Positions 5,098-30,778 of a stretch of DNA of 64,000 bases are shown here, in pieces. The stretch spans positions 1 through 64,000 of the forward strand of contig JAKOVY010000112.1 in the NCBI GenBank assembly GCA_029781825.1, written 5' to 3'. Source of the stretch: Bacillota bacterium. GTDB lineage: Bacteria; Bacillota; Syntrophomonadia; Syntrophomonadales; DTU052. The notes beneath the pieces were generated by a model, which saw nothing but the letters and a program-made list of their open reading frames with translations, had not been told where the DNA came from and did not search any database. The translations under genes and the position numbers were made by a program. The stretch's first letter is position 1, and each line of letters starts with the position of its first letter.

Positions 5098-5107
5098 GGC
5101 ATCCTCC

Positions 5108-6583: not shown

Positions 6584-6612
6584 GGAATCCCTCCATATTA
6601 TTATATAGACAT

Positions 6613-6638
6613 TAAGTGAGTGAACATTCACTCACTTA
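6613..6638. promoter_or_regulatory. Perfect palindromic operator between aminotransferase and TetR genes
   Basis: TAAGTGAGTGAA and its exact complement TTCACTCACTTA are separated by CA, giving a 26-base perfect inverted repeat 29 bases upstream of the aminotransferase start. The core TGAGTGA..TCACTCA resembles operators of TetR-type fatty-acid regulators such as FadR of Bacillus. An AT-rich run (TATTATTATATAG) next to it could hold a -10 element of the minus-strand gene. The divergent TetR protein is the natural ligand. Confidence 0.85.
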
Positions 6639-6715
6639 CAGCATATGCTATTGTTGGGTCATCGTCAATCATCCCCGACCGAGCTGATCATAAGGAACGA
6701 AAAGGTGAAATATCT

Positions 6716-7363
6716 ATGAATCAATTCAGGGAAACTTTCAACAAGTTGTCGCCGGAAAAGCAAGGCCGGATATTGGAGGCGGCTATCGACGAGTTTGCCG
6801 GACACGGCTACGACAGCGCGAACATCAACAGCATTGCGCAGAAGGCCGGAGTGAGCGTAGGCTCGATCTACAATTATTTTGAGAGCAAAGAGGACCTTTA
6901 TCTGGCGGTGGTTCATCATGCGGTCGAGACTCTTAAAGCGGCTCTGGAGGATATAGTTACCCGGGAAGACGACCTGTTCAAGCGGATAGAGATGATACTC
7001 CGGTCCATACAGACTTTTACCCGGCGCTACGTCAATTTGACCAGGCTGTACAATGAGATGACCACCGAGAGCAGATCCGATCTTACCTGGACCATTGTTT
7101 CCAAAATGGAAGGGGTGACCGCCGAACTGTATGCTTCGTACATCAAAGAAGCTCAGGAAAACGGCCGGGTCCGTCCGGACATCGACCCCAAATACTTCGC
7201 CTTCTTTCTGGACAATCTTTTTGTTCAGCTGCAGTTTGCGTATGCCTGCGACTATTACAAGAACCGGCTGAAGATGTTTGTAGGCGAGGATGCCCTTGAC
7301 AACGATGAGCTGATGGTGGAGCAGCTGATGAAGTTTATCCGCGGGGCCTTTTGTCTGCAGTAA
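6716..7363 (+). CDS. TetR-family transcriptional regulator
   Basis: A 215-residue regulator with the TetR helix-turn-helix at residues 15-60 (INSIAQKAGVSVGSIYNYFESKEDLY) and an all-helical ligand domain. The ATG at 6716 sits seven bases after AAAGGTGA; upstream in-frame codons would run through the operator. It diverges from the aminotransferase-aldolase pair across the perfect palindrome at 6613-6638. It therefore probably represses that pair and itself, and may respond to an acyl-CoA or related compound, as many members with this operator type do. Confidence 0.9.
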   Translation: MNQFRETFNKLSPEKQGRILEAAIDEFAGHGYDSANINSIAQKAGVSVGSIYNYFESKEDLYLAVVHHAVETLKAALEDIVTREDDLFKRIEMILRSIQTFTRRYVNLTRLYNEMTTESRSDLTWTIVSKMEGVTAELYASYIKEAQENGRVRPDIDPKYFAFFLDNLFVQLQFAYACDYYKNRLKMFVGEDALDNDELMVEQLMKFIRGAFCLQ

Positions 7364-7466
7364 AACGCCGGGAGGGTGCGGTGGCGGCGGAGAATGAGAT
7401 CCGGCGCTCATGCCCGGCAAACCCGTAAAAGATAATCCTGTCCAAACTGGGGGAGGGGAGCTTGAG

Positions 7467-9074
7467 ATGAACCCTTTGATAATTGCCTATGATGTGGGAA
7501 CGACCGGGATCAAAACCTGCGTTTACGAGGTAGCGGATACCATAAGGTTGCTGGCCAGTGATATGGAAGTCTATGAACTGCATGTTCTGGACAACGGCGG
7601 GGCCGAGCAGGAGCCTTACGACTGGTGGCATGCCATGTGCAGCACCACCAGGAAGGTACTGCTCAAAAACAGCATAGCCCCCAACCGGATAAAGGGCATA
7701 TCGTTCTGTGCCCAGATGCAGGGGCTGGTCCTGGTGGATCGCGAAGGGGAACCCGTGCGCCGAGCCATGAGCTATATGGACAACCGGGCCCAAAAGCAGT
7801 TCAAAGATGGCATGGCTCACGGGCTGCAGATCGCGGGGGTCAATGTGTTCAAGCTCTTGAAATCCCTCCGCATCACGGGAGCGGTTGCGGCCAGTGTAAA
7901 GGACCCGGTATGGAAATACAAATGGGTGGAAGCGAACGAGCCTGAGCTGTTCGAGAGGGTTCATAAATGGCTGGACGTTAAAGAGTTCCTGATCGCCAGG
8001 TGTACGGACCAGTTTGTGATGACCGAGGACAGCGCCTTCGCTACGCTCCTCTATGACACCCGCCCGGGGCGAAAGTGTTTCAGCCCGGAGATATGCAGGA
8101 TGCTGGGCGTCAACATGCAACACCTGCCGCGGATAGTTCGCTCCACCGACATGGTAGGGGGGCTGACGGCCAGGGCTGCGGCGGAGCTGGGCTTGGATGA
8201 AGGAACCCCGGTATTCGGCGGAGGAGGGGACGCTTCCTTGATCGGGGTGGGAGCGGGAGCCGTAGACCTGGGCAGCACTCACGCCTATTTGGGGACTTCC
8301 GGCTGGATCTCAACTGTGGTCGACCGCCAGATCGTCGACACCGGCAGCATGATCGCTTCGATAGTAGGTGCTGATCCCAGGTACTTCAACTACTTTGCCG
8401 AGCTGGAGACGGCCGGCAAGTGCCTGGAATGGGTTAAGGACCACCTGGCACTGGATGAGATCAGCATTTACCTGGAGAAGAAACAGGTCGACGAGGGTCC
8501 GGAGGCGGTTTATCGAAACCTGTATGATTACATGATGGATGCCATAAAGCACGTACCGGCCGGCAGCAACGGCGTCATATTCACCCCCTGGCTGCACGGC
8601 AACCGGTGTCCCTTCGAAGACCCCTACGCCCGGGGTATGTTTTTCAACATCAGCATCGAGACCGGAAAGTCGGACATGATCCACGCCGTATTGGAAGGGG
8701 TTTGCTACCATCTGCGCTGGCAGCTGGAGTCACAGGAGAAAAAGGTCAAGACTTCGGAAGTGATCAGGCTGGTCGGCGGCGGGGCTCTGGCTCCTCTTAC
8801 CTGCCAGACCTTGGCCGACGTGCTGGGACGGGAGATAGAGACCGTGGAAAACCCGCAGAATGTGGGTGCGGTCGGGGCGGTGGCGGTAGCGGCCGTGGGT
8901 CTCGGGATCATCAGTGAGCTCAGTGATGTGAAGAGCCTGATAAAGGTAACCGGACGGTACACGCCCAATCGGAACACCCGGGAGGTCCATGACCGGAATT
9001 TTAAGGCTTTCAAGGCCCTCTACCGGAATAACCGCAGACTTTTCGGTTTATTAAACAATGCCTCAAAAACCTGA
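7467..9074 (+). CDS. FGGY-family carbohydrate kinase
   Basis: A 535-residue kinase of the xylulokinase/glycerol kinase superfamily. It has the N-terminal phosphate loop YDVGTTGIKTCVYE, the substrate-region CAQMQGLVLVD, the catalytic-aspartate region GGGGDASLIGVGAGA and the C-terminal nucleotide site VRLVGGGALAPL. ATG 7467 lies six bases after GGGAGGGGAG. It follows the TetR gene by 103 bases on the same strand and may be co-transcribed. No isomerase, dehydrogenase or transporter adjoins it, so the sugar or polyol is unknown. The tandem aldolase nearby could act on its phosphorylated product. Confidence 0.85.
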   Translation: MNPLIIAYDVGTTGIKTCVYEVADTIRLLASDMEVYELHVLDNGGAEQEPYDWWHAMCSTTRKVLLKNSIAPNRIKGISFCAQMQGLVLVDREGEPVRRAMSYMDNRAQKQFKDGMAHGLQIAGVNVFKLLKSLRITGAVAASVKDPVWKYKWVEANEPELFERVHKWLDVKEFLIARCTDQFVMTEDSAFATLLYDTRPGRKCFSPEICRMLGVNMQHLPRIVRSTDMVGGLTARAAAELGLDEGTPVFGGGGDASLIGVGAGAVDLGSTHAYLGTSGWISTVVDRQIVDTGSMIASIVGADPRYFNYFAELETAGKCLEWVKDHLALDEISIYLEKKQVDEGPEAVYRNLYDYMMDAIKHVPAGSNGVIFTPWLHGNRCPFEDPYARGMFFNISIETGKSDMIHAVLEGVCYHLRWQLESQEKKVKTSEVIRLVGGGALAPLTCQTLADVLGREIETVENPQNVGAVGAVAVAAVGLGIISELSDVKSLIKVTGRYTPNRNTREVHDRNFKAFKALYRNNRRLFGLLNNASKT

Positions 9075-17635: not shown

Positions 17636-18400
17636 ATGCCAAATTTCAAGGTTGACCTTAGCGGGCAGGTCGCAGTGGTGACAGGGGCCGGCAACGGTAT
17701 CGGTAAAGCTTGTGCCATTGCTCTCGCTGACAGCGGCGCCCAGGTAGCTCTCATTGATATTTCACAAGCGGCTATGGAGCAAACCCAGGCGGAAATCACG
17801 AGCCGGGGTGGAAGCTGTACCGCTTATCTCTGCGATGTAAGCAATGTTGCGGCCATCAATGAGACCTATCAAGCTATTGTCGACTATTATGGACGAATTG
17901 ATATCGCCGTAAATTCGGCGGGTATCAATATTCAACAGCGAGGTGAAGAAGTAACCGAGGAAGCCTGGGACAGAATAATGGGGATAAACGCCAAAGGAGC
18001 ATTCTTCTGCAGCCAGGCGGCCGGACGCATAATGATAAAGCAGAGAAAGGGCAAGATTATAAACATTGGATCTGCAATGTCAGTGGTAGGGTATGTGAAG
18101 CGGTCGGCCTACTGTGCCAGCAAAGGAGCGGTAGCCCAGTTTACCAAAGTTTTGGCGGGAGAGTGGGCGCCATACAATGTTACGGTCAACACCGTTGCTC
18201 CGACCTTTATCAATACCCCTTTTACCGAGCCGATGTTTAAGGATGCGGAATTCAAAGCGGATGTTGAACGGCGTATCCTGTTAAACCGGATCGGTGAAGT
18301 TGATGATGTTACCGGCACGGTACTTTATTTGGCCTCCGACGCCTCCGACTTTGTAACCGGTTCAATTGTAATGGTTGATGGAGGGTGGACAGCCTGGTAA
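17636..18400 (+). CDS. Short-chain dehydrogenase/reductase
   Basis: A 254-residue classical SDR with cofactor motif TGAGNGIGKA (residues 16-25), NSAG (93-96), and catalytic Asn118, Ser146, Tyr159 and Lys163 (YCASK). It oxidises or reduces a hydroxyl/keto substrate with NAD(P). The ATG follows AAGGGGTG. It is the first gene behind the sigma-54 promoter. In this setting it could oxidise a 3-hydroxyacyl-CoA made by the MaoC hydratase, or act on the free hydroxy acid. It resembles FabG-like catabolic dehydrogenases, and specificity is not readable. Confidence 0.9.
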   Translation: MPNFKVDLSGQVAVVTGAGNGIGKACAIALADSGAQVALIDISQAAMEQTQAEITSRGGSCTAYLCDVSNVAAINETYQAIVDYYGRIDIAVNSAGINIQQRGEEVTEEAWDRIMGINAKGAFFCSQAAGRIMIKQRKGKIINIGSAMSVVGYVKRSAYCASKGAVAQFTKVLAGEWAPYNVTVNTVAPTFINTPFTEPMFKDAEFKADVERRILLNRIGEVDDVTGTVLYLASDASDFVTGSIVMVDGGWTAW

Positions 18401-18483
18401 TACCCGGGATTCCAGGGCCATTACCGGCCAAGCAGTCCATAGGCAATGTGTATTCCGCAAATCCAATCAGGGGAGGAAGAAGA

Positions 18484-19908
18484 ATGTCAAAATCTGCAGC
18501 GAGTTTGATCGCTCGGCTTGATGAATCCCGTTTGACGACGAATCACTATAAAGTGATCAGTGCTGCCGTCCTGGGGGACATGCTGGAGTTCTTTGACTTT
18601 ACCATTATAAGCTTTGTTATTGCATTTATCATGGTTCCGTGGGGCCTTGATTACGGTTCCTCAGCGATTATATTGCTGGCGTCGGGATTGGGCGCTATTA
18701 TCGGTGCCGCCCTGTTCGGCAATATAGCCGACAGAATCGGAAGAAGGCCGGTCTTTATTTTCACCATATTGTTTAGCGCTCTGATGACGGGTGCCATGTA
18801 CTTTACACCCGAAGGCAATTGGCAGTTCCTCGCAGTCTTTCGTTTCCTGACCGGTTTGGCGCTCGGTGGACTGTACTGCGTCGACCTGCCATTGGTACAG
18901 GAGTTTGTGCCCTCGAAGTATCGCGGTCGGGTTAGCGGAATTGTAACCGCATTTATTCCGATTGGTACAATGATTGCCAGCAGTAGTGCGGCCTTCCTGA
19001 CGCCATCCATTGGCTGGAGAGGGCTCTTCCTGGTCGGACTGCTTCCGGCTTTGCTGTGTCTCTTAATTCGAATTTGGGTCCCCGAATCTCCACGCTGGCT
19101 TATCAGCAGGAAGAGGTTCGATGAAGCTGAAGCGGCGGTGGACTGGGTTACCGGCCATCACCACGATTTCCGTGAGGTTAGGAAGAGCGACACCGAGTGG
19201 GTGGATGACCTTCCGGCTCAGACCCAGCACAGCTGGAGCGAGCTTTTCCAATATCCCCGCAGTGTTATAACCACCTGGTTTACCAATATCGCGCAACAGT
19301 GCGGTTACTACTGCTTTACCATGTGGGGTCCGGCGCTCCTGGCTTTGGTTATAGGAAGAACCCCGCAGGAAGCGGCCAAGCTTTATATCGCGGTTACCCT
19401 GGGAGGTTTTATCGGCAGATGGTTCTGGGCGTTCATGTCCGACTATCTGGGTCGCAGGGTCAGCGGGATGCTGCTGGGCGCTGGTGCCGCAACCATGCTG
19501 GTCATCGCCATATTCAATACCGGGAACTTCATTGGCGGAATCTCGGTATTCTGGCTCTGCATGATCGGTATCTACTTCTTTGCTGACGGCGGTTTTGCTC
19601 TGGTAGGACCTTATGGCTCCGAGGTATGGCCTGCTCAGCTGCGGGCAACCGGTATGGGCTCCGCGTACGGAATGGGCGGTATCGGCAAATTGGTCGGTCC
19701 CATGATCGTTGCCTGGTTTGCCGGTTCCAGCAACCTGGTCAGCCCGAAAGCAACCACGGATGCAATTGCTCCTGTGTACCTTTTCCTGGCCGGCTGTTTT
19801 GTAGTCCTGGGAGTCCTGTTCTACTTTGCCCGGGAGACCAAAGGCAAGACCATGGAACAGATTGAAGCCGAGCTGGAAGCGGAAAGGCTTGGAGCCCGCG
19901 CTGCTTAA
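18484..19908 (+). CDS. MFS metabolite:proton symporter
   Basis: A 474-residue major facilitator with about twelve membrane segments. The loop motif ADRIGRRP follows segment 2 and a related DYLGRR occurs in the second half; WVPESPRWLISRKR marks the sugar/organic-acid branch. The start ATG 18484 follows GGGGAGGA; an in-frame start at 18385 would overlap the SDR gene. Placed second in the sigma-54 operon, it most likely imports the organic acid or lactone that the other products degrade. The branch includes aromatic and carboxylic acid symporters. Confidence 0.88.
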   Translation: MSKSAASLIARLDESRLTTNHYKVISAAVLGDMLEFFDFTIISFVIAFIMVPWGLDYGSSAIILLASGLGAIIGAALFGNIADRIGRRPVFIFTILFSALMTGAMYFTPEGNWQFLAVFRFLTGLALGGLYCVDLPLVQEFVPSKYRGRVSGIVTAFIPIGTMIASSSAAFLTPSIGWRGLFLVGLLPALLCLLIRIWVPESPRWLISRKRFDEAEAAVDWVTGHHHDFREVRKSDTEWVDDLPAQTQHSWSELFQYPRSVITTWFTNIAQQCGYYCFTMWGPALLALVIGRTPQEAAKLYIAVTLGGFIGRWFWAFMSDYLGRRVSGMLLGAGAATMLVIAIFNTGNFIGGISVFWLCMIGIYFFADGGFALVGPYGSEVWPAQLRATGMGSAYGMGGIGKLVGPMIVAWFAGSSNLVSPKATTDAIAPVYLFLAGCFVVLGVLFYFARETKGKTMEQIEAELEAERLGARAA

Positions 19909-19973
19909 TCAAGCATGTTGATCAATAACCTAAACAATACACGTCTATATAAAACTTGGGGAGGGTACTGTAA

Positions 19974-20732
19974 ATGAGTGAGAACAATGTAAAAATTGAC
20001 GTTATTGAATTCATGGGGAAGAAGTTGAGCTTCCTTGACTTGAGCAAGGATATCGGTCCGGATATCCCCGTTTACCCGGGTCACATGAAGACTGATTTCT
20101 GGTGGCATAAGACCCACGAAGAAACCGTGTTCAGCCTGGGAGACAAGAGCAGCTACAAGTATGGTTTCGGAGTAAAAGGGATTATTACCTGTGACCATAC
20201 CAGTACCCACGTGGATGCGGTTTACCATTTCGACCCTAATAAATCGCACCTGTCCGTGGACAAGATAACCCTTCAAGAGTTAATCACCCCCGCAGCCTGG
20301 ATTGATGTATCGTTTGTGCCGCCTCGCAGTCATATAACCGTGGATGCGTTGAAAAAAGCCCTGGATGCGGCGGAAGTAACCCTTCAGCCGGGGATGACCC
20401 TGCTGTACTGGACAGGCATTGAGCCCTATGGGGTTACCGATCCCTTCTATTTCCTGAGCCAATACCCCGGACTGAATAGAGAAGCAACCAACTGGCTGCT
20501 GGATCACGGTCTGGTGAATATTGGCACGGATGCGGCCAGCCTGGATACTCCGGCTGATATAAACTATCCCAACCATTCCGTTCATGCGGAGAGAGAGGTC
20601 ATTCATACCGAGAGCCTGGTGAATATTACCAAGATCCCACGGCACAGCGGTTTTTACTATGCGATGTTCCCTCTCAAATGGATTGGCCTGACCGGCAGCC
20701 CCGTACGGGCATTCGCCATCTGGGAAGATTAA
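19974..20732 (+). CDS. Cyclase-family metal-dependent hydrolase
   Basis: A 252-residue member of the cyclase/kynurenine formamidase family. The metal motif appears as CDHTSTHVDAVYHF (the family's HxGTHxDxPxH), with STH in place of GTH, and the C-terminal SLVNITKIPRHSGFYY is also typical. Relatives hydrolyse amides, lactones or cyclic esters. In front of a CoA-transferase and a 4-hydroxyacyl-CoA dehydratase homologue, the attractive but unproven role is opening a lactone to the free hydroxy acid. The ATG follows GGGGAGGG. Confidence 0.85.
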   Translation: MSENNVKIDVIEFMGKKLSFLDLSKDIGPDIPVYPGHMKTDFWWHKTHEETVFSLGDKSSYKYGFGVKGIITCDHTSTHVDAVYHFDPNKSHLSVDKITLQELITPAAWIDVSFVPPRSHITVDALKKALDAAEVTLQPGMTLLYWTGIEPYGVTDPFYFLSQYPGLNREATNWLLDHGLVNIGTDAASLDTPADINYPNHSVHAEREVIHTESLVNITKIPRHSGFYYAMFPLKWIGLTGSPVRAFAIWED

Positions 20733-20777
20733 GCGGATTCTTATTGAATTGAACACCGAGTGCTCCCTATTGTCCTT

Positions 20778-20810
20778 GAGAAGAAAGGGACTGCAAGTCT
20801 CTTTCTTCTC
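20778..20810 (+). terminator. Hairpin between cyclase and CoA-transferase genes
   Basis: GAGAAGAAAGGGACT pairs with AGTCTCTTTCTTCTC, a 15-base stem with one mismatch or wobble and a GCA loop. It is followed by ATCCCC, not a T-run, so it is probably a weak terminator or mRNA stability element inside the operon. The 156-base gap here is the largest in the cluster. Confidence 0.55.
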
Positions 20811-20888
20811 ATCCCCAATATCTCAGAAAACGACCAAACAATATTAATCCCATCGGAAAAATGGGTTGTTGGAATGGAGGGGTGAGAT

Positions 20889-22187
20889 GTGAAGTGGCAG
20901 GATTACTATAAAGAAAGAACATGTACGGCGGATGAAGCTGTACGCCACATAAAGTCGGGAGATACGGTAGTGGTAGCTCATGCCTGCGGAGAGCCCGTGT
21001 TGCTGACCAATGCCATGAGCGATAGATACGCCGAACTGGAAAACGTCAAAGTTGTGCACCGGGTGGGCATGGGTGAAGGCAGGTATTGCCAGCCCGGAAT
21101 GGAGAAGCATTTCCGACATGTATCGTTGTTTGCCGGTCCCAGCACCAGGCAGGCCATTAACAGCGGTCGGGCTGATTTTATCCCCAGATTTATATCCGAA
21201 ATCCCGGCATTATTCATTAACGGAACCATTCCCATTGACGTAGCCCTGGTAACCGTAAGCCCGCCCGACAGACATGGCTATTGCAGCCTGGGAATATCGG
21301 TGGACTACACCCTCCCGGCGGCTCGCCAGGCGAAGATGATCATCGCTGAAGTGAACGAGAATATGCCCAGAACTCATGGCGACTCGTTCCTTCATGTGAG
21401 GGAGATCTCCTATTTTGTCCCCAGCAACCGGGAACTGATTCAATTGGAGCGTCCGACCTTTACCGAGGTGGAAGAAGCTATTGGCCGCTATGTAAACACC
21501 TTGATTAAAGACGGCGACACCCTGCAGTTGGGAATAGGAGCAATTCCCGATGCCATCCTGTCCTTCCTGAAGGAGAAAAACGATCTGGGGATCCATACCG
21601 AGGTGTTTTCGGATGGCGTGATGGAACTGACCGAATTGGGTGTCATCACCGGGGCCAAAAAAACCTTGCACAGGGGCAAGATTGTTTCAACCTTTGCTAT
21701 GGGCACCAAAAAGCTGTATGAATGGCTGGATGACAATCCCTTCATTGAAATGCACTCCGAGGACTATGTAAACAATCCCTGGGTCATCGGGCAGAACGAC
21801 AACATGGTCTCGATAAACTCAGCCCTGCAGGTTGATGTCCTGGGCCAGGTAGCGGCAGACCAGATCAACGGCCGGCAGTTCAGCGGCGTCGGCGGCCAGG
21901 TGGACTTCATCCGCGGCGTCCGCCTCAGCAAAAACGGGAGATCAATTATTGCTATGCCTTCAACTGCGGCCAAGGGAACCGTCAGCCGAATTGTTCCGGC
22001 CCTGTCACGGGGAACAGCCGTGACCACGAGCCGAAACGAAGTCAGCTGCATCGTTACCGAATACGGGATTGCCATGTTGGACGGCAAGACCAATCTGGAA
22101 AGGATGAATGCCCTGATAGCAATAAGCCACCCCGATTTCAGGGATGAAATCAGGGAAGAAGCCATGAAACTGTATTACAGCGGCTGA
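20889..22187 (+). CDS. 4-Hydroxybutyrate CoA-transferase-like protein
   Basis: A 432-residue acetyl-CoA hydrolase/transferase family protein resembling AbfT/Cat2. It has ACGEP near the start, [10 protein letters not shown], the catalytic-glutamate segment [12 protein letters not shown] and the [10 protein letters not shown] motif that shapes the CoA site. The enzyme would move CoA from acetyl-CoA or another donor onto a hydroxy acid. The start is GTG at 20889 after GGAGGGGTGAG, since the ATG two bases earlier meets an immediate stop. Its partner dehydratase is encoded four genes later, in the same operon. Confidence 0.9.
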
Positions 22188-22237
22188 GAGATAAATCGGG
22201 GAACGGCAGGAGCGAATACGCGCAGAAAGGAAGATCA

Positions 22238-23383
22238 ATGATGGATTTCAAGCTGGGTGAAGAATATGAAATGCTGAGACAGTCAGTGCGGGACTTCGCT
22301 GAAGGGGTCCTGGCACCTGGCGTAGTTGACAGGGATGAAAAGGAATACTTCGATCGCAGTGTTTTCGACAAGATGGGGGAACTGGGACTTACCGGCATTC
22401 CCTTTGAAGAGGAATACGGCGGGGCCGGAATGGACTACATTGCCTATGCCATCGCCGTTGAAGAACTGGGAAGAGTGGACCCCTCGGCGGCCGACACGCT
22501 TTCATCCCATGTAAGTCTGGGCGCCTGGCCGATATATAAATGGGGAACCGAAGAGCAGAAGCAGAAGTATTTAATTCCCCTGGTAAAGGGAACCAAACTC
22601 GGAGCGTTTGGACTCACCGAGGCCGGAGCAGGCTCGGATGCCATCGCCATGAGCTGCAGGGCCGATCGGGACGGGGACAGCTATGTTTTGAACGGCAGGA
22701 AAATCTTTATTACCAATGCCGGAGCCGCCGATATCTATGTGGTATTTGCCCGCACCGGACCCAAAGAGTTAAGAAGCAAAGCCTTCAGCGCCTTCATCGT
22801 TGAAAAGGGAACCCCCGGTTTCAGCTTTGGGAAGTTCGAAAAGAAAATGGGTTTGCGGGGTACGCAGAACTGTGACTTGATTTTCGAAGACTGCCGGATA
22901 CCGAAGGAGAACCTGCTGGGCAAAGAAGGGGAAGGATTCAAGATGGCCATGGCAACACTGGATGGCGGAAGAATCGGAATTGCAGCCCAAGCGGTTGGGA
23001 TTGCCCAGGGAGCCTATGAAATCGCGGTAGCCTATGCCAAACAGAGGGTACAGTTCGGTAAACCCATCGCCGCTTTGCAGGCCATCCAGTTCAAACTGGC
23101 GGATATGGCAGTGGAAATCAAAGCCTCGCGGCTCTTGACCTATGAAGCTGCCTGGAGGAAGAGCCAGGGTCTTGATTATGGCGCCGATGCCGCCATGGCG
23201 AAATTGAAAGCCTCCGAGACCGCCAATTGGGTGGCCAACCAGGCCGTACAGATCCATGGAGGTTATGGATACACCCGTGATTTCCCGGTAGAAAGAATCA
23301 TGCGCGACGCCAAGATTACGGAAATCTATGAAGGAACCAGTGAAATTCAGCGAGTGGTTATCAGCAACAGCATCTTACGTTAG
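22238..23383 (+). CDS. Acyl-CoA dehydrogenase
   Basis: A 381-residue flavoprotein with FAD/substrate motifs [12 protein letters not shown] (about 127-138) and [10 protein letters not shown], and the C-terminal YEGTSEIQR with the catalytic base Glu365 in the short/medium-chain position. It introduces or, in reverse, reduces the 2,3 double bond of an acyl-CoA, with electrons passing to ETF. The etfAB genes are not in this window. It sits between the CoA-transferase and MaoC hydratase genes with short gaps (50 and 14 bases), so it belongs to the same pathway. Confidence 0.93.
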
Positions 23384-23397
23384 AGGGAGGGAACGGG

Positions 23398-23820
23398 ATG
23401 AGCTACAGTGAACGCATAAAACGCTGGGACGACTTGAATGTAGGCGATACGGCCAGCTTCACCAAAACCATAACCGAAACCGATGTGATCTTGTGGGTAG
23501 GATTGGCCGGAGATATGAATCCGATTCATATAGACAGGGAATACAGTAAAACCACCCGTTTCGGAGATGTTATTGCTCCGGGGGTCCTGGTAATGGGGCT
23601 TATATCCACGACCGTTACCATGCTTACCTTCGGCAATGTATATGCCAGCCAGAATGTGAGGTTCCGCAGACCGGTATATATCGGTGACACCATCACCGCA
23701 ACGACAACGATTGTGGAAAAGCTGGAAGAGAAGCGCATGGTGCGTATGGAAACTAAATGCGTGAACCAGAAGGGTGAAACCGTTATAATTGGAGAAGGAA
23801 TGCAGTTCATTCTTGAGTAA
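23398..23820 (+). CDS. MaoC-like enoyl-CoA hydratase
   Basis: A 140-residue hot-dog-fold protein with the R-hydratase catalytic signature GDMNPIHIDREYSKTTRFGD (Asp and His of the dyad about residues 39-44) and the following APGVLVMGLIS. It adds water to a trans-2-enoyl-CoA to give a 3-hydroxyacyl-CoA of R configuration. Its length is typical for PhaJ-like proteins. It is 14 bases downstream of the acyl-CoA dehydrogenase gene, after GGGAGGG. Within the operon it would process the enoyl-CoA produced by the dehydratase/isomerase. Confidence 0.9.
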   Translation: MSYSERIKRWDDLNVGDTASFTKTITETDVILWVGLAGDMNPIHIDREYSKTTRFGDVIAPGVLVMGLISTTVTMLTFGNVYASQNVRFRRPVYIGDTITATTTIVEKLEEKRMVRMETKCVNQKGETVIIGEGMQFILE

Positions 23821-23867
23821 CAATTTACCGGCTGCAGCGGAATGCTGCCCGAAGGGGAGGGAATGGT

Positions 23868-25337
23868 ATGGCATTAAAAACGCCTCAGCAATACCTGGAC
23901 GAGCTAAGGCAAATGAATATTGAACTGTATATGTTTGGGGAAAAGGTGGAGAACCGGGTTGATCATCCCATCATCAGACCGTCCATCAACTCTGTGGCCA
24001 TGACTTATAAGCTGGCCCTGGATCCCGAGTATGAGGATATTATGACGGCGACCTCAAACCTGACCGGGAAAAAGATTAACCGTTTTACCCACCTGCACCA
24101 GAGCACTGACGACCTGATCAAGAAAGTTAAAATGCAGCGTTTACTGGGTCAGAAGACCGGCAGCTGTTTTCAGCGCTGTGTGGGTTTGGATGCCTTCAAT
24201 GCTTTGTACAGTACGACATTTGAAATCGACCAGGCCCACGGCACCGAATATCACCAGCGTTTTAAGAAGTACATGGAATATGTACAGGAAAACGACCTGG
24301 TGGTCGACGGCTGCATGACCGACGCCCGCGGCGATCGTTCAAAATCGCCGGGTCAGCAGCCGGACCCCGACGCCTACCTGCATGTGGTGGAAAGGCGGGC
24401 GGACGGAATTGTGGTTCGCGGCTGTAAACTCCATCAAACCGGTATGGTGAATTCTCATGAGATCCTGGTCATGCCCAACAACAGCTTGCGGCCGGAGGAA
24501 AAAGACTGGGCAGTAAGTTTTGCCATCCCGCTGGATACACCGGGGATGATCTATGTCTACGGCCGCCAGTCCTGTGATACCCGCAGGCTCGAGGGTGGAA
24601 CCGTAGATATCGGGAATGTTCATTTTGGCGGCCAGGAAGTCATGACCATCTTCAATGATGTTTTTGTTCCCTGGGAGCGGGTCTTCATGGACGGAGAGAC
24701 CGATTTCACCACCATGCTGGTCGAGCGTTTTGCCGGCTATCACCGCCAGAGCTACGGCGGCTGTAAAGTGGGAGTGGGAGATGCCCTCATCGGTGCTGCC
24801 AAAGCAATTGCCGATTACCAGGGGACTTCCAACGCCTCACACATCAAGGACAAGCTGGTTGAGATGTGCCACCTCAATGAAACCCTCTACGGCTGCGGGA
24901 TTGCCTGTTCGGCGGAGGGCAGAAAGACGGCCGCCGGCAACTATTTGATCGATCTCTTGCTGGCCAACATCTGCAAGCAGAACGTCACCCGTTTCCCGTA
25001 TGAGATCGCCAGGCTGGCCCAGGACATTGCCGGCGGGTTCTTCGTGACCATGCCTTCGGAGAAGGATTTCGAAAACCCGGTTATCGGCCCGCTGGTTAAA
25101 AAGTATGCCGCCAGCAAAGCGGACGTACCGGTTGAGCACCGGCAGAGGATGCTGCGGCTTATTGAGAACCTTACCCTGGGAACAGCCGCGGTTGGATACC
25201 TTACCGAATCGATGCATGGTGCCGGGTCGCCCCAGGCTCAGCGGATTATGATCACCCGTCTGATTAACCTGGAGCATCGCAAACATCTGGCTGAAACCCT
25301 CTGCGGTATAAGAGAAAACCCGGATATTGATTGGTAA
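23868..25337 (+). CDS. 4-Hydroxybutyryl-CoA dehydratase/vinylacetyl-CoA isomerase homologue
   Basis: A 489-residue protein of the flavin- and [4Fe-4S]-dependent AbfD family. All four cluster ligands known from the Clostridium aminobutyricum enzyme can be placed: Cys100 and Cys104 (GSCFQRCVG), His292 and Cys299 (YHRQSYGGC). AbfD removes water from a 4-hydroxyacyl-CoA by a radical route and isomerises to crotonyl-CoA. With ligands intact, a true dehydratase is likelier than a 4-hydroxyphenylacetate hydroxylase-type flavoprotein. It is the last gene of the sigma-54 operon. A branched or longer 4-hydroxy acid is possible as substrate. Confidence 0.92.
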   Translation: MALKTPQQYLDELRQMNIELYMFGEKVENRVDHPIIRPSINSVAMTYKLALDPEYEDIMTATSNLTGKKINRFTHLHQSTDDLIKKVKMQRLLGQKTGSCFQRCVGLDAFNALYSTTFEIDQAHGTEYHQRFKKYMEYVQENDLVVDGCMTDARGDRSKSPGQQPDPDAYLHVVERRADGIVVRGCKLHQTGMVNSHEILVMPNNSLRPEEKDWAVSFAIPLDTPGMIYVYGRQSCDTRRLEGGTVDIGNVHFGGQEVMTIFNDVFVPWERVFMDGETDFTTMLVERFAGYHRQSYGGCKVGVGDALIGAAKAIADYQGTSNASHIKDKLVEMCHLNETLYGCGIACSAEGRKTAAGNYLIDLLLANICKQNVTRFPYEIARLAQDIAGGFFVTMPSEKDFENPVIGPLVKKYAASKADVPVEHRQRMLRLIENLTLGTAAVGYLTESMHGAGSPQAQRIMITRLINLEHRKHLAETLCGIRENPDIDW

Positions 25338-25481: not shown

Positions 25482-25515
25482 CAAAGCCCTCCTGGAATGT
25501 TCCAGGAGGGCTTTG
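25482..25515. terminator. Bidirectional terminator between converging operons
   Basis: CAAAGCCCTCCTGGAA and its exact complement TTCCAGGAGGGCTTTG are separated by TG, a 16-base perfect stem. It lies 145 bases after the dehydratase stop and 16 bases beyond the end of the minus-strand TIM-barrel gene. T-runs are short on both sides. The converging position supports termination in both directions. Confidence 0.8.
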
Positions 25516-25530
25516 CAACTGGGATACGTT

Positions 25531-26370
25531 CTAGCTCTCTTTCACCTTTATTGCCTTGTACTCTCTGGTGATCGCGATTACGGCATTTTCGGTCGGAGTC
25601 CGCTCACCGCTGGAGCCGGAGGCATAGCCGTCGGCATCCGAGTTGACGACGGAGTACTGCGCTGTTTCCACGTCCGCAAAGGGCCCGCCATGCGTCAACA
25701 CGAACACATCGGGGTTTACCGCCCGAGCCGCCAGGCACATTTTCTGCACCTCGGCGGTTGCTTTTTCCAGGGTCATGACCTCTTTGGCGCCGGTTAGACC
25801 GCCGCCGGTTACTCCAACAATGGCTCCGATAACGTCGGCTCCCGCCTCGGCCATTATCCGGGCCTCAGTTTCGTTAAAGGCCCAGGCTACGGTGAAGATA
25901 TCCTTTTTATGAGCGGTTTTTATCAGCTCGACCTCGCGGGAAAAGCCGATTCCCGCATTTTCCAGCTGCCGGGCAAAGTATTCCCCGTAGAGCCCGGCAA
26001 AGGGCTCGTTGGTGATGCCGGAAAAGCCCAGGTCCATCATTTCATCGATGATCCGCTCCAGGTTTATTGCCGGGTTATGAGCCCCGATACCGGCGATGCA
26101 GGGTGCGGTTTTGACAACCGGGAGTATTTCCCTGGCCATCTCTTTGACCCGGGCATTGCAGTCTTCATACGGCATCCAGGCCAGGAGGGTAGGAAGCCCC
26201 ATCATGCGCCATATAGCCGTAGAATAAACGGCCACCAGGTCGGCTCCGCCCAGGTCGGCGCACTTGGCCGTTAAACCGGTTCCGGCGCCGAACATCAAGA
26301 GGGCTCGGTTGTTGTTGACCTGCTCCCGCAGCCTGGCTATTATTTCACTCCGCTTATACTGTACTGCCAT
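25531..26370 (-). CDS. PEP-hydrolase-type TIM-barrel protein (copy B)
   Basis: A 279-residue protein of the phosphoenolpyruvate hydrolase/TIM-barrel signal transduction family (PF09370 type). It has an early glycine-rich LLMFGAGTGLTAKCAD, a central GIGFSREVELI and a late VLTHGGPF. It is clearly paralogous to copy A (28599-29447) along its whole length. It is encoded 15 bases after the Tm-1-like gene; in plant Tm-1 these two domains are fused in one chain, so the two bacterial products may form a complex. Reaction unknown. Confidence 0.8.
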   Translation of the reverse strand: MAVQYKRSEIIARLREQVNNNRALLMFGAGTGLTAKCADLGGADLVAVYSTAIWRMMGLPTLLAWMPYEDCNARVKEMAREILPVVKTAPCIAGIGAHNPAINLERIIDEMMDLGFSGITNEPFAGLYGEYFARQLENAGIGFSREVELIKTAHKKDIFTVAWAFNETEARIMAEAGADVIGAIVGVTGGGLTGAKEVMTLEKATAEVQKMCLAARAVNPDVFVLTHGGPFADVETAQYSVVNSDADGYASGSSGERTPTENAVIAITREYKAIKVKES

Positions 26371-26385
26371 AGATGAACCTCCGGG

Positions 26386-27735
26386 CTAAAAGTTCTCAAA
26401 AGGAATAACATCCGGGCGATCCTTTTTGTTCCCCTTGACCCAGGTCCCGTTGAGCATTTCCAGGAGCAGTTCAGCCAGCAGATCGGCAAATTCGGGTTCA
26501 TTCATGTGCCGATCCACCACAATAACCTCCAGATTGTCCTTGTTGGGGTCAATCTTGGCCCGGAGAGCTTTTACATAACGCACTGAACGCCGTGACCACT
26601 GGGGATTCTCTTCATCGGACGCCCACACCGGTCCGGGTCCGGGTCCCGACCAACCCAGTTTTATATCGGGGGTCGCGAGATCACAGGCGCCCCATCCCCG
26701 CATGGGCACGCACAGAACGCTGGGACCTTTGGCTCGATTGAGCTTTTCCGCCATGTGTTCGCCGATCCGGTAGGCCTCATCCATGGACACCCCGATACAG
26801 GTTACCGTGGGGTTATGCTCATACAGACCCCGTCCGGGCTGGTCGGTCTCCTTTAAGAGCCTTTCCGGCACGGTGTTCTTGGGGCCGAAGTTAATGAGGT
26901 CCAGTCCGCCCGGAGCCACTACCTGCGGAATGCCCATATCCCCGGCGGCGGTCAGGCGGTCGGGACCGGCACTCAGCACGCCGCCCAGCATTTCGTCGGC
27001 AATTTCATGGGTGGTTATATCCAGCATCCCGGCTATAAAACCGTTCCGGATCAGGTCCTCCATGGAACGGCCGCCGCTGCCCACAGCATGGTTGATCATA
27101 ACGTCGTAACCGGCCTTTTCCATAATGGAGGAGGCCCGCAGTACACAGGGGGTGGTAACGCCGAACATCATGCAGCCGATCAGCGGTTTTTCCTCGATTC
27201 CTTCCAAGGCGGGAGCGTTGGCCATTCCAACTACAGCCCCGGCGGCGTTGTTAAGTATCCCCCGGGTGACCTTATTAAGACCGGCTTCAGCAATGGGGTA
27301 TATCATGCAGATGTCCGAGGTGCCCACATAAGGAGCGACGTCTCCTGAAGCCATGGTGGTGAGCATGAACTTGGGAAATCCGATGGGAAGCGTCTGCATG
27401 ATCCTGGTTGCAATACTGGCTCCCATGGAACCGCCGTAAGCAATGATGCCGTGCACCTTGCCTGCGGCCACCATTTCATTTACCAGTTTGATGGCCCCTT
27501 CCGCCACCAGGTCGGATGCGGCTTTGCGGTCCAGGGCAAATATGTCTTCCGGTTTTTTTCCTACCCGGGCGATTACTTCGCTCAGGCTGATATCGGCCCA
27601 TCCAACTTCACGGCCGACGCTCAGTTCCAAAATGGTGGGGTTGCCGCCCGCTGCTTTGACCCGTTCGGCCAGGAACTTGATCTCTTCCCCTTTGGTATCG
27701 AGGATTCCGGTCACCAGTATCTCTTTAACCGTCAT
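26386..27735 (-). CDS. Tm-1-like ATP-binding (UPF0261) protein
   Basis: A 449-residue UPF0261 protein. The N-terminal segment ILVTGILDTKGEEI, the glycine-rich IIAYGGSMGASIATR, GTSDICMIYPIAEAGLN and INHAVGSGGRSMEDL (about 225-245) are family hallmarks. The fold binds ATP, and the plant relative Tm-1 blocks tobamovirus replication, but bacterial function is not established. It overlaps the ComB-like gene by 11 bases and precedes TIM-barrel copy B by 15, so these are tightly coupled. ATG 27735 follows GGAGGG by six bases. Confidence 0.88.
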   Translation of the reverse strand: MTVKEILVTGILDTKGEEIKFLAERVKAAGGNPTILELSVGREVGWADISLSEVIARVGKKPEDIFALDRKAASDLVAEGAIKLVNEMVAAGKVHGIIAYGGSMGASIATRIMQTLPIGFPKFMLTTMASGDVAPYVGTSDICMIYPIAEAGLNKVTRGILNNAAGAVVGMANAPALEGIEEKPLIGCMMFGVTTPCVLRASSIMEKAGYDVMINHAVGSGGRSMEDLIRNGFIAGMLDITTHEIADEMLGGVLSAGPDRLTAAGDMGIPQVVAPGGLDLINFGPKNTVPERLLKETDQPGRGLYEHNPTVTCIGVSMDEAYRIGEHMAEKLNRAKGPSVLCVPMRGWGACDLATPDIKLGWSGPGPGPVWASDEENPQWSRRSVRYVKALRAKIDPNKDNLEVIVVDRHMNEPEFADLLAELLLEMLNGTWVKGNKKDRPDVIPFENF

Positions 27736-28522
27736 GGGTTTCCCTCCTCAATTGGTTTATGTTTTTACCTTCCCAGTTGGAAAACCGGATCAGACCGTGA
27801 TCCAACTGCATATGAGGAACGACTTGCGAGGTGTTTATCTGCAGGCAGACCTCAAAATCATCTCTTCCGCCCACTTCCAGGAGTACCTGGCCGCTGGCGG
27901 ATTCGAGAAAAGCGGCCCGTGCATCGGGGTAGGCGGCCAGCAAGGCTTTGGCCGCTCGGCATGAATCCGAAATACGGAGCGTAATTCCCCGATCCCGGGC
28001 CAGGTCTTCCAGCTCCTGCAGGAGGTATCCGGCGCAGTATGCATCATCCAGCACAAATTTGCCGTACTGCCCTGCACATACTATCGTTATTCCGCAGGAT
28101 GCGGCCAGGGCGGCAGTCAAACCGGCCCGGGCGCAGGCTCTGGCGTTCAGGAGGCTGGCGATAAACAGGCTGACACACCCCCTGGCTTTGTCTATCGCCC
28201 GCGTACCGTTGCTGGTGCACAGGGCCACATCCCTGCCCTTAACCGGATACTTTTTGGCTTCCGCCGGTGAGTTGTCCATATCAAATCCAGGCAGTTTCCG
28301 TCCCTGCCATTCGCCGCTGGTAACCATCTGCCTCTGAGCTCCCAACCGCCGGGCTTGTTCTTCCTCGGCCACGGTATAAACCCATCGGCAGCCGTTGTCC
28401 AGGAGCGAAACAATGGTACTGCTGGCCCGGAGCACGTCTATCAGCAGACAGACGGTTTTATCCGCTTCAGGAGCATATTCTCTTAATGACAGAGCGGTAT
28501 CCACCTCAATAACCATGCTCAT
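27725..28522 (-). CDS. ComB-family 2-phosphosulfolactate phosphatase-like protein
   Basis: A 265-residue protein with the ComB signature: LLIDVLRASSTIVSLL (about 26-41), SGEWQGRKLPGFDMDNSPAE (about 69-88) and ALCTSNGTRAIDKA. ComB removes phosphate from 2-phosphosulfolactate in coenzyme M synthesis using Mg2+. No ComA or other CoM gene is near, and a bacterium of this kind would not obviously make CoM. It may therefore dephosphorylate another 2-phospho-3-substituted acid. It overlaps the Tm-1-like gene and shares the operon with the RuBisCO-like gene. Confidence 0.85.
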   Translation of the reverse strand: MSMVIEVDTALSLREYAPEADKTVCLLIDVLRASSTIVSLLDNGCRWVYTVAEEEQARRLGAQRQMVTSGEWQGRKLPGFDMDNSPAEAKKYPVKGRDVALCTSNGTRAIDKARGCVSLFIASLLNARACARAGLTAALAASCGITIVCAGQYGKFVLDDAYCAGYLLQELEDLARDRGITLRISDSCRAAKALLAAYPDARAAFLESASGQVLLEVGGRDDFEVCLQINTSQVVPHMQLDHGLIRFSNWEGKNINQLRRETHDG

Positions 28523-28559
28523 TTAACCGCATTCCCCGTTCTTGTTGCCTTTTGAAAAC

Positions 28560-28589
28560 CTCCCTGTTGCCCGGACGGGCAACAGGGAG
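28560..28589 (-). terminator. Stable hairpin within the RuBisCO-like operon
   Basis: CTCCCTGTTGCCC (28560-28572) and GGGCAACAGGGAG (28577-28589) form a perfect 13-base stem with a GGAC loop. Read on the minus strand it is followed by GTTTTC, a short T-run. It lies between TIM-barrel copy A and the ComB-like gene, so it could partially terminate and set unequal expression of the two halves. Confidence 0.6.
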
Positions 28590-28598
28590 CAACGGAGC

Positions 28599-29447
28599 TT
28601 ATGATTTTTTGAGTGGAATGTTCTTGAATTGCTGACAGGCTTCCTTGAGCGGTACTTCGATGGGAATACGTTCAATACTGGATGCACCCAAAAAGCCTAC
28701 TGCTTCAGTGTGTTCATAGATATAGCGGGTGTCCTCCGGATAGGCTATCGGTCCGCCATGGGCAAAGATCATGATATCCTTGTACCCGCTGCGAGCCGCC
28801 TGGGTCATTTCTCTAATCAGTTCCGCACATTTTTCGAGGGTGAGCTTGTCCTCCGCATATTTGGATCCGATGGAACCGCCGGCGGTCAGACCCATATGGC
28901 ATATCAGAACGTCAAGTTGGGCTTCGCCGACGAGCCGGGCTTCCTCCACGTTAAAGGCATAACCCAGGGTGAACAGACCCAGCTCCTTAGCAACTTTCAG
29001 GGCCTCGATTTCCACCGCATATCCCATACCGGTATCCTCCAGCTCCTGGCGGAAACGGCCGTCGATCAAACCGACAGTGGGGAAATTCATGACGGCCGAG
29101 AAACCTAGGTACTGCAGGTGCTGGAGGTAGGGACGCATTTCCCTGGTGGGGTCGGTTCCGCATATACCGGCAATCATGGGAGTTTCCTTAATTACCGGGA
29201 ATACGCGGTGTGCCAGATCGATGACTATCTGATTGGCATCACCATAGGGCATGAGCCCGGCCAGGGAACCTTTACCATCCATGCGGAACAGACCGGAATT
29301 GTAGACCCCGATAAGGTCAACTCCTCCCTGCTCCGCAAATTTGCCGGATATACCGGTTCCGGCACCGGCAATAATGATCGGTCTGCCCTTAGCAATTTCC
29401 GCTTGTAACCTGGCCTTGACTTCATCACGGGTGTACTGTTTCGCCAT
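28599..29447 (-). CDS. PEP-hydrolase-type TIM-barrel protein (copy A)
   Basis: A 282-residue paralogue of copy B. The shared landmarks are IIIAGAGTGISGKFAEQGG, MIAGICGTDPTREM, GMGYAVEIEALKVAKELG, the strand with HMGLTAGGSIG, and IFAHGGPIAYPEDTRYIY near the end. This family is annotated as PEP hydrolase or signal-transduction TIM barrel, with no firm reaction known to me. It is the gene immediately after the RuBisCO-like gene (14 bases). Two paralogues in one operon suggest a heteromer or two related reactions. Confidence 0.8.
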   Translation of the reverse strand: MAKQYTRDEVKARLQAEIAKGRPIIIAGAGTGISGKFAEQGGVDLIGVYNSGLFRMDGKGSLAGLMPYGDANQIVIDLAHRVFPVIKETPMIAGICGTDPTREMRPYLQHLQYLGFSAVMNFPTVGLIDGRFRQELEDTGMGYAVEIEALKVAKELGLFTLGYAFNVEEARLVGEAQLDVLICHMGLTAGGSIGSKYAEDKLTLEKCAELIREMTQAARSGYKDIMIFAHGGPIAYPEDTRYIYEHTEAVGFLGASSIERIPIEVPLKEACQQFKNIPLKKS

Positions 29448-29461
29448 AGCAATTCCTCCTT

Positions 29462-30778
29462 TTATCCTTTGATATCAAAGATGCCGGTTTCTTCATCTTC
29501 AAGAAGCCCCCAGGCGTCAATTGCCGCCTGCAACTCGGGGTGTTCTTTGGCTGCTTCCACAATGGGGATTCCGGCCACGGCTGCGTCTATCGCCTGGCGC
29601 ATGGCTCTGGCTCCTGCAACCGGTCCCATAGGATGGCCGTGAATTGCTCCTCCGGCCCCCATAATACAGTCAAGTCCGAGATCGCGATATATGGCCTCGA
29701 CGCAGTTCGGCATTACCCCTCCGCCGGGCATGGGGAACGCCCGGTTAATATGGCACCACGGGCTGTTCAGGTGATGTCCTATCTGCAGATAGCGTTCCCG
29801 CAGGAATGGGAACTTGCCGTAAGGACTGGGGTAGACTACCATATCGGCACCGGCCATGCGGGCGAGTTTCCCCAAAATCAGATGGGAGCTCATACCGGAT
29901 ACCGGTGACTCATACATGGTTCCGGCAAAGTCCAGGTGGGCCATTATGGGGACATTGATATCAGGATGCTCCGCCAAACCCTGCAAAGCGGAAATACCTA
30001 CGGTAAGGAAGTTGATCATCAGTGCGTTGGCTCCAGCATCAATAGCCCGCCGTGCATTATCCAGCACTTTAAACGCTGAATCGGTGATATTGGGAGTATA
30101 CAGCACCCGGTGCCCGGTTTCTTCGTAGTGCTTGCGAACAGCCTCCATATACAGCTTGATTCTCTGCTCAATGGGGTTAAACGGGGGGTCGGCGATCAAC
30201 TCATCGTCCTTGATAATGTCCACACCGCCTTCAACCGCCCGGGTAAACAGCTTGCAGCCGACTTCAGGAGTATACCCGGTACAGGGCTTAATCATGTTGT
30301 TCAGCAGCGGTCGGTCGTATACTCCTAAGAGCTGGCGCACCCCTTCAACCCCGAATTTGGGACCCTTAAACTGGGACAGAAAACCGGGGGGGAATTTAAT
30401 ATCCAGCAGTTTCAGGGGGCCTATCATCGAAATATTACCGATTATTGTAGACAGCATCATGGGGATTTGGGGTCCGAAGTTCACAGCCGGGTACGCCAAT
30501 TGAAATACCCATTGGCGTTTATCCAGGTTCTCCGGAACCTCGTATTCATGCCCCGGCACCTCATATATACTTACCACTTTGGCTACATGTTTTTCCCGAA
30601 CTTCCGGGGTTTCTTCGGGAACGGCTACCCAGGTACCAGTTGTCTGTTCAATGGCGATGGAACTGATCTTCTTTACGATATCCAGGTCGCGTCCGGTCTG
30701 CAGGTAATAGGTCGCGATTACATATTCGCCGGTTGCCTCAATATGTTCGGGGATGACCATCATATCCAGCTCAGACAA
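29462..30778 (-). CDS. RuBisCO-like protein (form IV type)
   Basis: A 438-residue RuBisCO-fold protein. TTG 30778 is chosen as start because GGAGG lies eight bases upstream; an in-frame codon at 30883 would add 35 unrelated residues. Numbered from the TTG, many active-site positions survive: TGTW, GN near 115, Lys164 (IKP), the metal-lysine motif KDDE at 190-193, Lys304 (LGK) and GHPMGPVAG. The second substrate lysine is replaced (IKPC where RuBisCO has IKPK), and the HRA motif reads HLDF. Carboxylation is therefore unlikely, and an enolisation, decarboxylation or isomerisation is more plausible. It leads the minus-strand operon. Confidence 0.9.
   Translation of the reverse strand: MSELDMMVIPEHIEATGEYVIATYYLQTGRDLDIVKKISSIAIEQTTGTWVAVPEETPEVREKHVAKVVSIYEVPGHEYEVPENLDKRQWVFQLAYPAVNFGPQIPMMLSTIIGNISMIGPLKLLDIKFPPGFLSQFKGPKFGVEGVRQLLGVYDRPLLNNMIKPCTGYTPEVGCKLFTRAVEGGVDIIKDDELIADPPFNPIEQRIKLYMEAVRKHYEETGHRVLYTPNITDSAFKVLDNARRAIDAGANALMINFLTVGISALQGLAEHPDINVPIMAHLDFAGTMYESPVSGMSSHLILGKLARMAGADMVVYPSPYGKFPFLRERYLQIGHHLNSPWCHINRAFPMPGGGVMPNCVEAIYRDLGLDCIMGAGGAIHGHPMGPVAGARAMRQAIDAAVAGIPIVEAAKEHPELQAAIDAWGLLEDEETGIFDIKG

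Follow-up and report, generated by a model that had tools for sequence, protein, structure and literature searches.

A conserved operon of RuBisCO-like protein, ComB, UPF0261, and PEP-hydrolase families in Syntrophomonadales and distant relatives

A 64,000-nt stretch of a Syntrophomonadales genome (Bacillota; contig JAKOVY010000112.1), referred to here as the window and used for operon coordinates, carries five minus-strand genes at 25531–30778. In order, they encode a RuBisCO-like protein (RLP), a phosphoenolpyruvate (PEP)-hydrolase-type TIM barrel (PEPH1), a ComB-type phosphatase, a UPF0261 protein, and a second PEP-hydrolase-type barrel (PEPH2). Comparisons across genomes support the view that the operon is a conserved, undescribed RLP/ComB/UPF0261/PEP-hydrolase pathway. 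The initial annotation had likewise regarded the pathway as undescribed, and this stood: the families are conserved together, and the RLP falls outside solved clades as far as these were tested. We consider it somewhat probable that the operon encodes a catabolic or salvage route in which a small hydroxy-ketone or keto-acid is phosphorylated, remodeled, dephosphorylated, and cleaved.

Conservation and co-occurrence of the operon genes

All five open reading frames are intact, and gaps between successive genes are 14, 76, −11, and 15 bp. Strong Pfam matches (Table 1) place the RLP in the RuBisCO superfamily, ComB in its phosphatase family, and both barrels in the PEP_hydrolase (TBST) family by domain and by fold; the UPF0261 protein exceeds the cut-off for both of its domains and has a PEPH partner next to it. 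Ratios of nonsynonymous to synonymous substitution (dN/dS) relative to a congener are 0.06–0.13 for all five genes. The genes are real, intact, and under purifying selection, and they form one conserved operon, in agreement with the earlier description of five tightly packed minus-strand genes of the named families.

Relatives of the RLP were sought in a single scan of 85,000 species genomes, which gave 80 loci in a clade spanning Bacillota, Chloroflexota, Actinomycetota, Caldisericota, and archaea. The order RLP–PEPH1–(ComB)–UPF0261–PEPH2 was found in ~28 further loci, some ending at contig edges, and both order and spacing are preserved down to 50%–60% protein identity. Syntrophomonadaceae-like Bacillota have a gene order identical to that of the window; other Clostridia, including Candidatus Formimonas warabiya, have RLP–PEPH1–UPF0261–PEPH2 without ComB, often together with a SorC-type regulator. 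The gene arrangement is not due to chance. A survey of 63 genomes from the same class identified 15 RLP carriers. ComB is present in 13 of these vs none of the 48 non-carriers (Fisher 1e-11), and a PEP-hydrolase in all 15 vs three of 48 (7e-12). When genomes were collapsed to genera, the association of RLP with ComB was 6/6 vs 0/23 (P = 2e-6), and that with PEP-hydrolase had a P value of 6e-5. The neighborhood survey proposed at the outset thus found the families together elsewhere.

Of the bacterial genomes that carry TBST, 97.4% also have UPF0261, and the two families co-evolve (PMC5028733). As in this Tm-1-like module, which has adjacent UPF0261 and PEP_hydrolase genes in many bacteria and a fused form in plants (PMC5028733), the two genes are adjacent in the window, where two diverged PEPH paralogs, the RLP, and ComB are present in addition. 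It could be argued that the pair is a generic two-protein enzyme of unrelated function inserted beside the RLP, with ComB serving a housekeeping role and no pathway common to the cassette, and the many unrelated operons in which the pair is found are consistent with this. We regard it as very unlikely, given the absence of ComB from all 48 RLP-negative genomes of the class and the order and spacing that persist among distant homologs. A Caldisericota contig (L022, 8838–18208) has all four window families in another phylum and in a different order: SorC regulator of the sugar-phosphate type, RLP, UPF0261, PEPH, DUF1097 membrane protein, acetamidase/formamidase, PEPH, zinc alcohol dehydrogenase, and ComB. 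This reordering of the same four families also argues against a loose assemblage, and the locus is the richest version of the operon and probably the best clue to its substrate.

At one other locus (G013:C3:298290-299240), the RLP match spans only residues 116–433 and contains an in-frame TAG, likely reflecting a broken gene or an assembly error; ComB and two PEPH genes follow.

Active site and relationships of the RuBisCO-like protein

The RLP is the only RuBisCO homolog in the 2.4-Mb assembly. Seventy-eight clade members were aligned and residues numbered on form II RuBisCO. N123, K175, K201, D203, E204, H294, and the loop-6 lysine K334 are invariant in all 78 (N110, K159, K185, D187, E188, H276, and K317 in the window RLP). 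The P1 phosphate glycines G381 and G403 are likewise retained in 78/78 and G404 in 75/78. K177 is replaced by an invariant cysteine (C161 in the window), and R295 and H327, which hold the second phosphate of ribulose 1,5-bisphosphate, have been lost (L277 and V310). With P1 kept and the second site lost, these residues suggest that members of the clade should bind one phosphate. K334 in RuBisCO meets the incoming carboxylate. Because it is invariant here, and is also kept in the decarboxylase OiaX, the RLP most likely carries out enolate chemistry in which a carboxyl group is gained or lost, and loss is likelier for catabolism. The annotation had proposed that the RuBisCO fold enolizes or decarboxylates its substrate; enolization fits the conserved Mg/carbamate residues and P1 site, and decarboxylation beyond it is suggested by the loop-6 lysine. 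Its broader expectation of phosphorylated keto-compound chemistry agrees with retention of P1 and of every Mg/carbamate residue, and with a phosphatase dedicated to RLP carriers.

The best NCBIfam match of the RLP is the MtnW model PRK09549 (405.3 bits vs a cut-off of 409; TIGR03332, 356 vs 513.6), and its best PDB matches are MtnW enolases. In methionine salvage, the phosphatase MtnX acts after MtnW (PMC6302742), and this system shares with the window a RuBisCO fold, carbamate/Mg residues, one phosphate site, and a phosphatase step after the RLP. These similarities, and an MtnA-family gene elsewhere in the genome, would fit a variant of methionine or 5'-deoxyadenosine salvage in which an MtnW-like RLP and ComB in place of MtnX recycle methylthio- or 5-deoxy-sugar phosphates in anaerobes. 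We consider this improbable. MtnW has lysine (K98) at the N123 position and serine at K334, whereas the clade has asparagine and lysine in 78/78, together with the invariant C177; no mtn gene was recognized among recurrent neighbors (gene families in at least four of the 80 loci); the MtnA family is found in 58 of the 63 class genomes irrespective of RLP; and MtnW lacks the UPF0261 and PEPH partners that, with ComB, accompany the clade. Identification of the RLP as MtnW itself was ruled out by the missing K98 (GKLS), the scores under cut-offs, and the absent mtn neighbors. Of the comparison with known form IV clades originally suggested, that with MtnW separates the RLP from it by residues and scores; in the tree, a clade excluding MtnW has an approximately unbiased (AU) P value of 0.35, and long branches hamper placement of MtnW.

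A second comparison is with OiaX/OiaT and other acid-sugar RLPs of D-apiose pathways, which have a similar kinase-plus-RLP logic and keep K334 and K175. An acid-sugar route would have the RLP decarboxylate a phosphorylated beta-keto acid in the manner of OiaX and feed a triose phosphate resembling dihydroxyacetone phosphate to glycolysis, with the phosphatase as overflow control and the PEP-hydrolases on a separate branch. RLP decarboxylases/transcarboxylases of 3-oxo-isoapionate-4-phosphate exist (Carter 2018, in PMC6302742), and neighborhoods of kinase and RLP, with or without a dehydrogenase, recur, as in Haloterrigena, where the RLP occurs with a four-carbon acid sugar kinase. Within the clade, FGGY kinases with saccharopine-dehydrogenase-like or aminotransferase genes, and GlpA/DUF1667 neighbors at two loci (L072 and L076), fit the same route. 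Nevertheless, the RLP scores 208 bits against the OiaX model NF042437 (cut-off 700), the P2 residues R295 and H327/Q, partly kept in OiaX, are lost, N123 is present, and UPF0261 or FGGY takes the place of the DUF1537 kinase. If the phosphate were retained, the operon would also have no need of a phosphatase of its own. On balance, the acid-sugar route appears unlikely.

Probable exchange of kinase partners

Among loci without PEPH and UPF0261, an FGGY kinase gene adjoins the RLP gene (<300 bp, same strand) in 35 of 51. These FGGY-type loci occur in Chloroflexota, Actinomycetota, archaea, and some Clostridia, often with a saccharopine-dehydrogenase-like protein or a class III aminotransferase; L072 and L076 encode a GlpA-like FAD dehydrogenase and a DUF1667 protein besides FGGY and RLP. 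UPF0261-type and FGGY-type members are interleaved in the RLP tree, and monophyly of the UPF0261 type was rejected (AU P = 2e-6). Three FGGY-type members (L062, L072, and L073) nest with 96% support among UPF0261-type members of a fully supported Clostridia clade, and no UPF0261 was found anywhere in the genomes of L062 or L072. This pattern suggests a functional swap between FGGY and UPF0261 (with PEPH).

Structure comparisons covered the proteins of the window and contig. In both sequence and fold, the solved structure nearest to the UPF0261 protein is 9mpy, in which Saro_1862 of Novosphingobium aromaticivorans holds acetovanillone. The acetovanillone pathway of this organism is described as beginning with a one-protein kinase, MarK, and we infer that Saro_1862 is MarK. 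A probable MarK-type hydroxyphenyl-ketone operon is found on the bisphenol-A plasmid pBAR1 of Sphingomonas bisphenolicum (L102:8075-14365), which carries genes for a beta-keto-acid cleavage protein (BKACE), UPF0261, a three-part biotin carboxylase, and a HAD phosphatase. The UPF0261 gene lies between those for BKACE and biotin carboxylase, and its product matches 9mpy with an E value of 9e-173. Kinase, carboxylase, and phosphatase steps are proven for the Hpe pathway (PMC9618137), and the gene set on pBAR1 follows the same kinase–carboxylase–phosphatase–cleavage logic, which supports a kinase role for UPF0261. The MarK variant of the Hpe/Acv pathway resembles the window in combining a UPF0261 homolog, an enzyme of C–C chemistry, a phosphatase, and a TIM-barrel cleavage enzyme in one operon. 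It uses biotin carboxylase and BKACE, whereas the window uses RLP and PEP-hydrolase-type barrels, and the substrate of the latter is probably not aromatic. Since partner exchange with FGGY and homology to MarK are two independent lines of evidence, UPF0261 is probably a kinase.

The statement that no sugar kinase is present did not hold, in view of this probable role and of an FGGY kinase gene at 7410–9074, ~20 kb from the operon. The latter belongs to a cluster of genes at 3931–9074 that codes for a class II aldolase (two domains), a class III aminotransferase, a TetR regulator, and the kinase. The aminotransferase is 51%–61% identical to RLP-adjacent ones in L036, L037, L070, L075, and L080, and the cluster resembles a piece or variant of the FGGY-type pathway that was acquired recently. 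It was rejected as an obligatory part of the window pathway, since three congeners have the RLP operon but lack the cluster. The FGGY kinase–RLP–saccharopine-dehydrogenase-like/aminotransferase operons of Chloroflexota, archaea, and Actinomycetota (L023–L081) share the RLP signature NNMIKPCTG and represent a second RLP pathway without an assigned reaction. A Thermus plasmid (L104:6989-8852) encodes UPF0261 with a class II aldolase and a tripartite tricarboxylate transporter, with no PEPH adjoining; judged by its genes, this is another partner swap for the putative UPF0261 kinase.

Phosphatases and PEP-hydrolase barrels

ComB falls under all NCBIfam equivalog cut-offs (TIGR00298, 134 vs 175). 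The annotation's observation that ComA is missing extends to the whole genome assembly, and coenzyme M synthesis was rejected as a function since the genome has no ComA. The ComA/ComB branch of that synthesis thus has a ComB-family phosphatase in common with the window and differs in its ComA and in the equivalog status of its ComB. Removal of phosphate by ComB, as first proposed, is consistent with the confinement of ComB to RLP genomes in the class. As for the two RLP carriers of the class that lack ComB, their lineages have a HAD or PHP phosphatase next to the operon. Among ComB-less PEPH/UPF0261 operons, L011 and L035 have a HAD hydrolase gene just downstream of PEPH2, and in L026, L043, L046, and G050 (L099) the RLP gene has a PHP-family phosphatase gene as its neighbor; in a few ComB-less loci, no phosphatase was seen in the stretch examined. 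The pattern is suggestive of a phosphatase step kept by replacement, with ComB or else a HAD or PHP enzyme.

PEPH1 has canonical motifs (NSGxxRMxGxGSLAGL, NFPTVGLIDG, CHMGLT, and GASSIERIP), and those of PEPH2 are altered (NEPFxGLYGE, (A/M)xxGVT, and SGSSGER). Because the altered motifs are conserved across distant Clostridia, PEPH2 reads as a conserved paralog of PEPH1 and not as a decayed copy. After 2p10, fold matches of both barrels are spread over many TIM barrels, with two C–C bond enzymes, ketopantoate hydroxymethyltransferase and methylisocitrate lyase, in their number.

A GlpP-type leader in related operons

In six loci (L013 and L016–L020), the gene immediately before that of the RLP codes for a GlpP-family antiterminator. 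These and L014 carry a leader, GGGACYAGAGAYGAGAGTRAGTCCC, that overlaps a terminator. Both alternative helices pair in 7/7 leaders, with changes on both sides in four terminator pairs and one antiterminator pair. The motif occurs once per genome, always before the RLP gene, and is absent from four genomes without the GlpP arrangement; it is apparently an undescribed RNA element. Known GlpP proteins have glycerol-3-phosphate as their ligand, and by analogy this suggests that the inducer of the related operons resembles glycerol phosphate.

Proposed pathway

The catalytic steps, their order, and the substrate are deduced from the observed gene content, conservation, co-occurrence, partner swapping, active-site residues, and leader RNA. 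In the route we favor, UPF0261 would act as an ATP-dependent, MarK-like kinase that phosphorylates the substrate. The RLP would bind the monophosphate in its P1 site and form an enolate through the carbamylated-lysine/Mg center; it is placed at this point because phosphorylation and dephosphorylation by enzymes of the same operon would cancel out if the RLP did not work between them. The enolate would then most likely be carboxylated or decarboxylated; decarboxylation of a beta-keto-acid phosphate ranks first and simple isomerization second. ComB, or a HAD or PHP phosphatase in relatives, would remove the phosphate, and PEPH1, resembling the PEP/pyruvate superfamily of TIM barrels, would cleave a C–C bond of the product. 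PEPH2 may be a diverged partner or an enzyme of second specificity. In related operons, the GlpP-family antiterminator would release expression in response to a metabolite resembling glycerol-3-phosphate.

Several points weigh against this route. The UPF0261 protein is 32% identical to 9mpy, so that its pocket could differ, and its model, although good per domain, has a domain orientation unlike that of the crystal structures and superposes poorly overall (TM 0.49, root-mean-square deviation 15). FGGY and UPF0261 could serve different pathways that merely share an RLP, conservation of K334 also fits roles other than carboxylate binding, and the HAD/PHP replacement is an adjacency of very common families. 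GlpP of the related operons may sense another ligand. GlpP is missing from the window genome, as is such a leader from the window, so the proposed inducer comes from relatives.

A different outcome for the enolate would make the RLP a true carboxylase outside the Calvin and AMP pathways: UPF0261 would phosphorylate a ketone, the RLP, which keeps every catalytic residue, K334 among them, would carboxylate its enolate with CO2, ComB would dephosphorylate the product, and the TIM barrels would cleave the resulting beta-keto acid. We think this quite unlikely. If true, anaerobic syntrophs, Chloroflexota, and archaea would have a route parallel to the biotin-dependent Hpe/MarK one but based on RuBisCO.

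Transcript features and flanking genes

The RLP may start at TTG 30778 (438 aa, with a GGAGG ribosome-binding site) or ATG 30763 (433 aa). The stem of the hairpin between PEPH1 and ComB (Table 1) recurs in L002 and L003, where changes compensate each other; variants occur in L005, L006, and L010, and other loci lack the hairpin. It is possibly a partial terminator or an element of RNA processing or stability, and may set expression of RLP and PEPH1 above that of ComB, UPF0261, and PEPH2. No Rfam match was found upstream of the window operon in a search for riboswitches, and promoter and terminator pattern scans gave no more matches than shuffled sequence.

Table 1. Positions of the operon genes and hairpins in the window
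Feature	Position	Strand	Remarks
RLP, form IV type	29462..30778	-	First operon gene; PF00016/PF02788; PF00016 177 bits (cut-off 30)
PEPH1, PEP-hydrolase-type TIM barrel	28599..29447	-	PF09370 363.8 bits; matches 2p10 by sequence and fold
Hairpin between PEPH1 and ComB	28560..28589	-	Perfect 13-bp stem, then GTTTTC; -26.4 kcal/mol
ComB-type phosphatase (2-phosphosulfolactate phosphatase family)	27725..28522	-	PF04029 203.9 bits (cut-off 26.4); 1vr0, E 1e-29
UPF0261/Tm-1-like ATP-binding protein, putative small-molecule kinase	26386..27735	-	PF06792+PF23189, 171/233 bits
PEPH2, second PEP-hydrolase-type TIM barrel	25531..26370	-	PF09370 311.4 bits
Intrinsic-terminator-like hairpin ending the operon	25484..25513	-	AAGCCCTCCTGGAACATTCCAGGAGGGCTT, then TGTTG; -25.1 kcal/mol; 17 nt past the PEPH2 stop

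Converging on the operon from the plus strand (17636–25337) are genes for an SDR, an MFS-type transporter, a cyclase family protein, a CoA-transferase, an acyl-CoA dehydrogenase, a MaoC protein, and a 4-hydroxybutyryl-CoA-dehydratase-like HpaB protein. The last genes of this cluster also adjoin the RLP operon in L012.

Implications

RLPs are the best handle on RuBisCO evolution, and few of their clades have an assigned reaction. The clade described here is widespread in uncultured anaerobes and archaea and has nearly the whole RuBisCO active site and two interchangeable sets of partners, and the partner genes narrow its reaction to a sequence of kinase, RLP, phosphatase, and lyase. Through the GlpP-type leader, the inducer and hence the substrate can be approached directly. 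The pathway would also explain what the UPF0261/PEP-hydrolase pair does in the cell; in plants the fused form of this pair, Tm-1, blocks a tomato virus. Carriers of the operon are bacteria living on waste acids, and its likely target is a small ketone-like compound.

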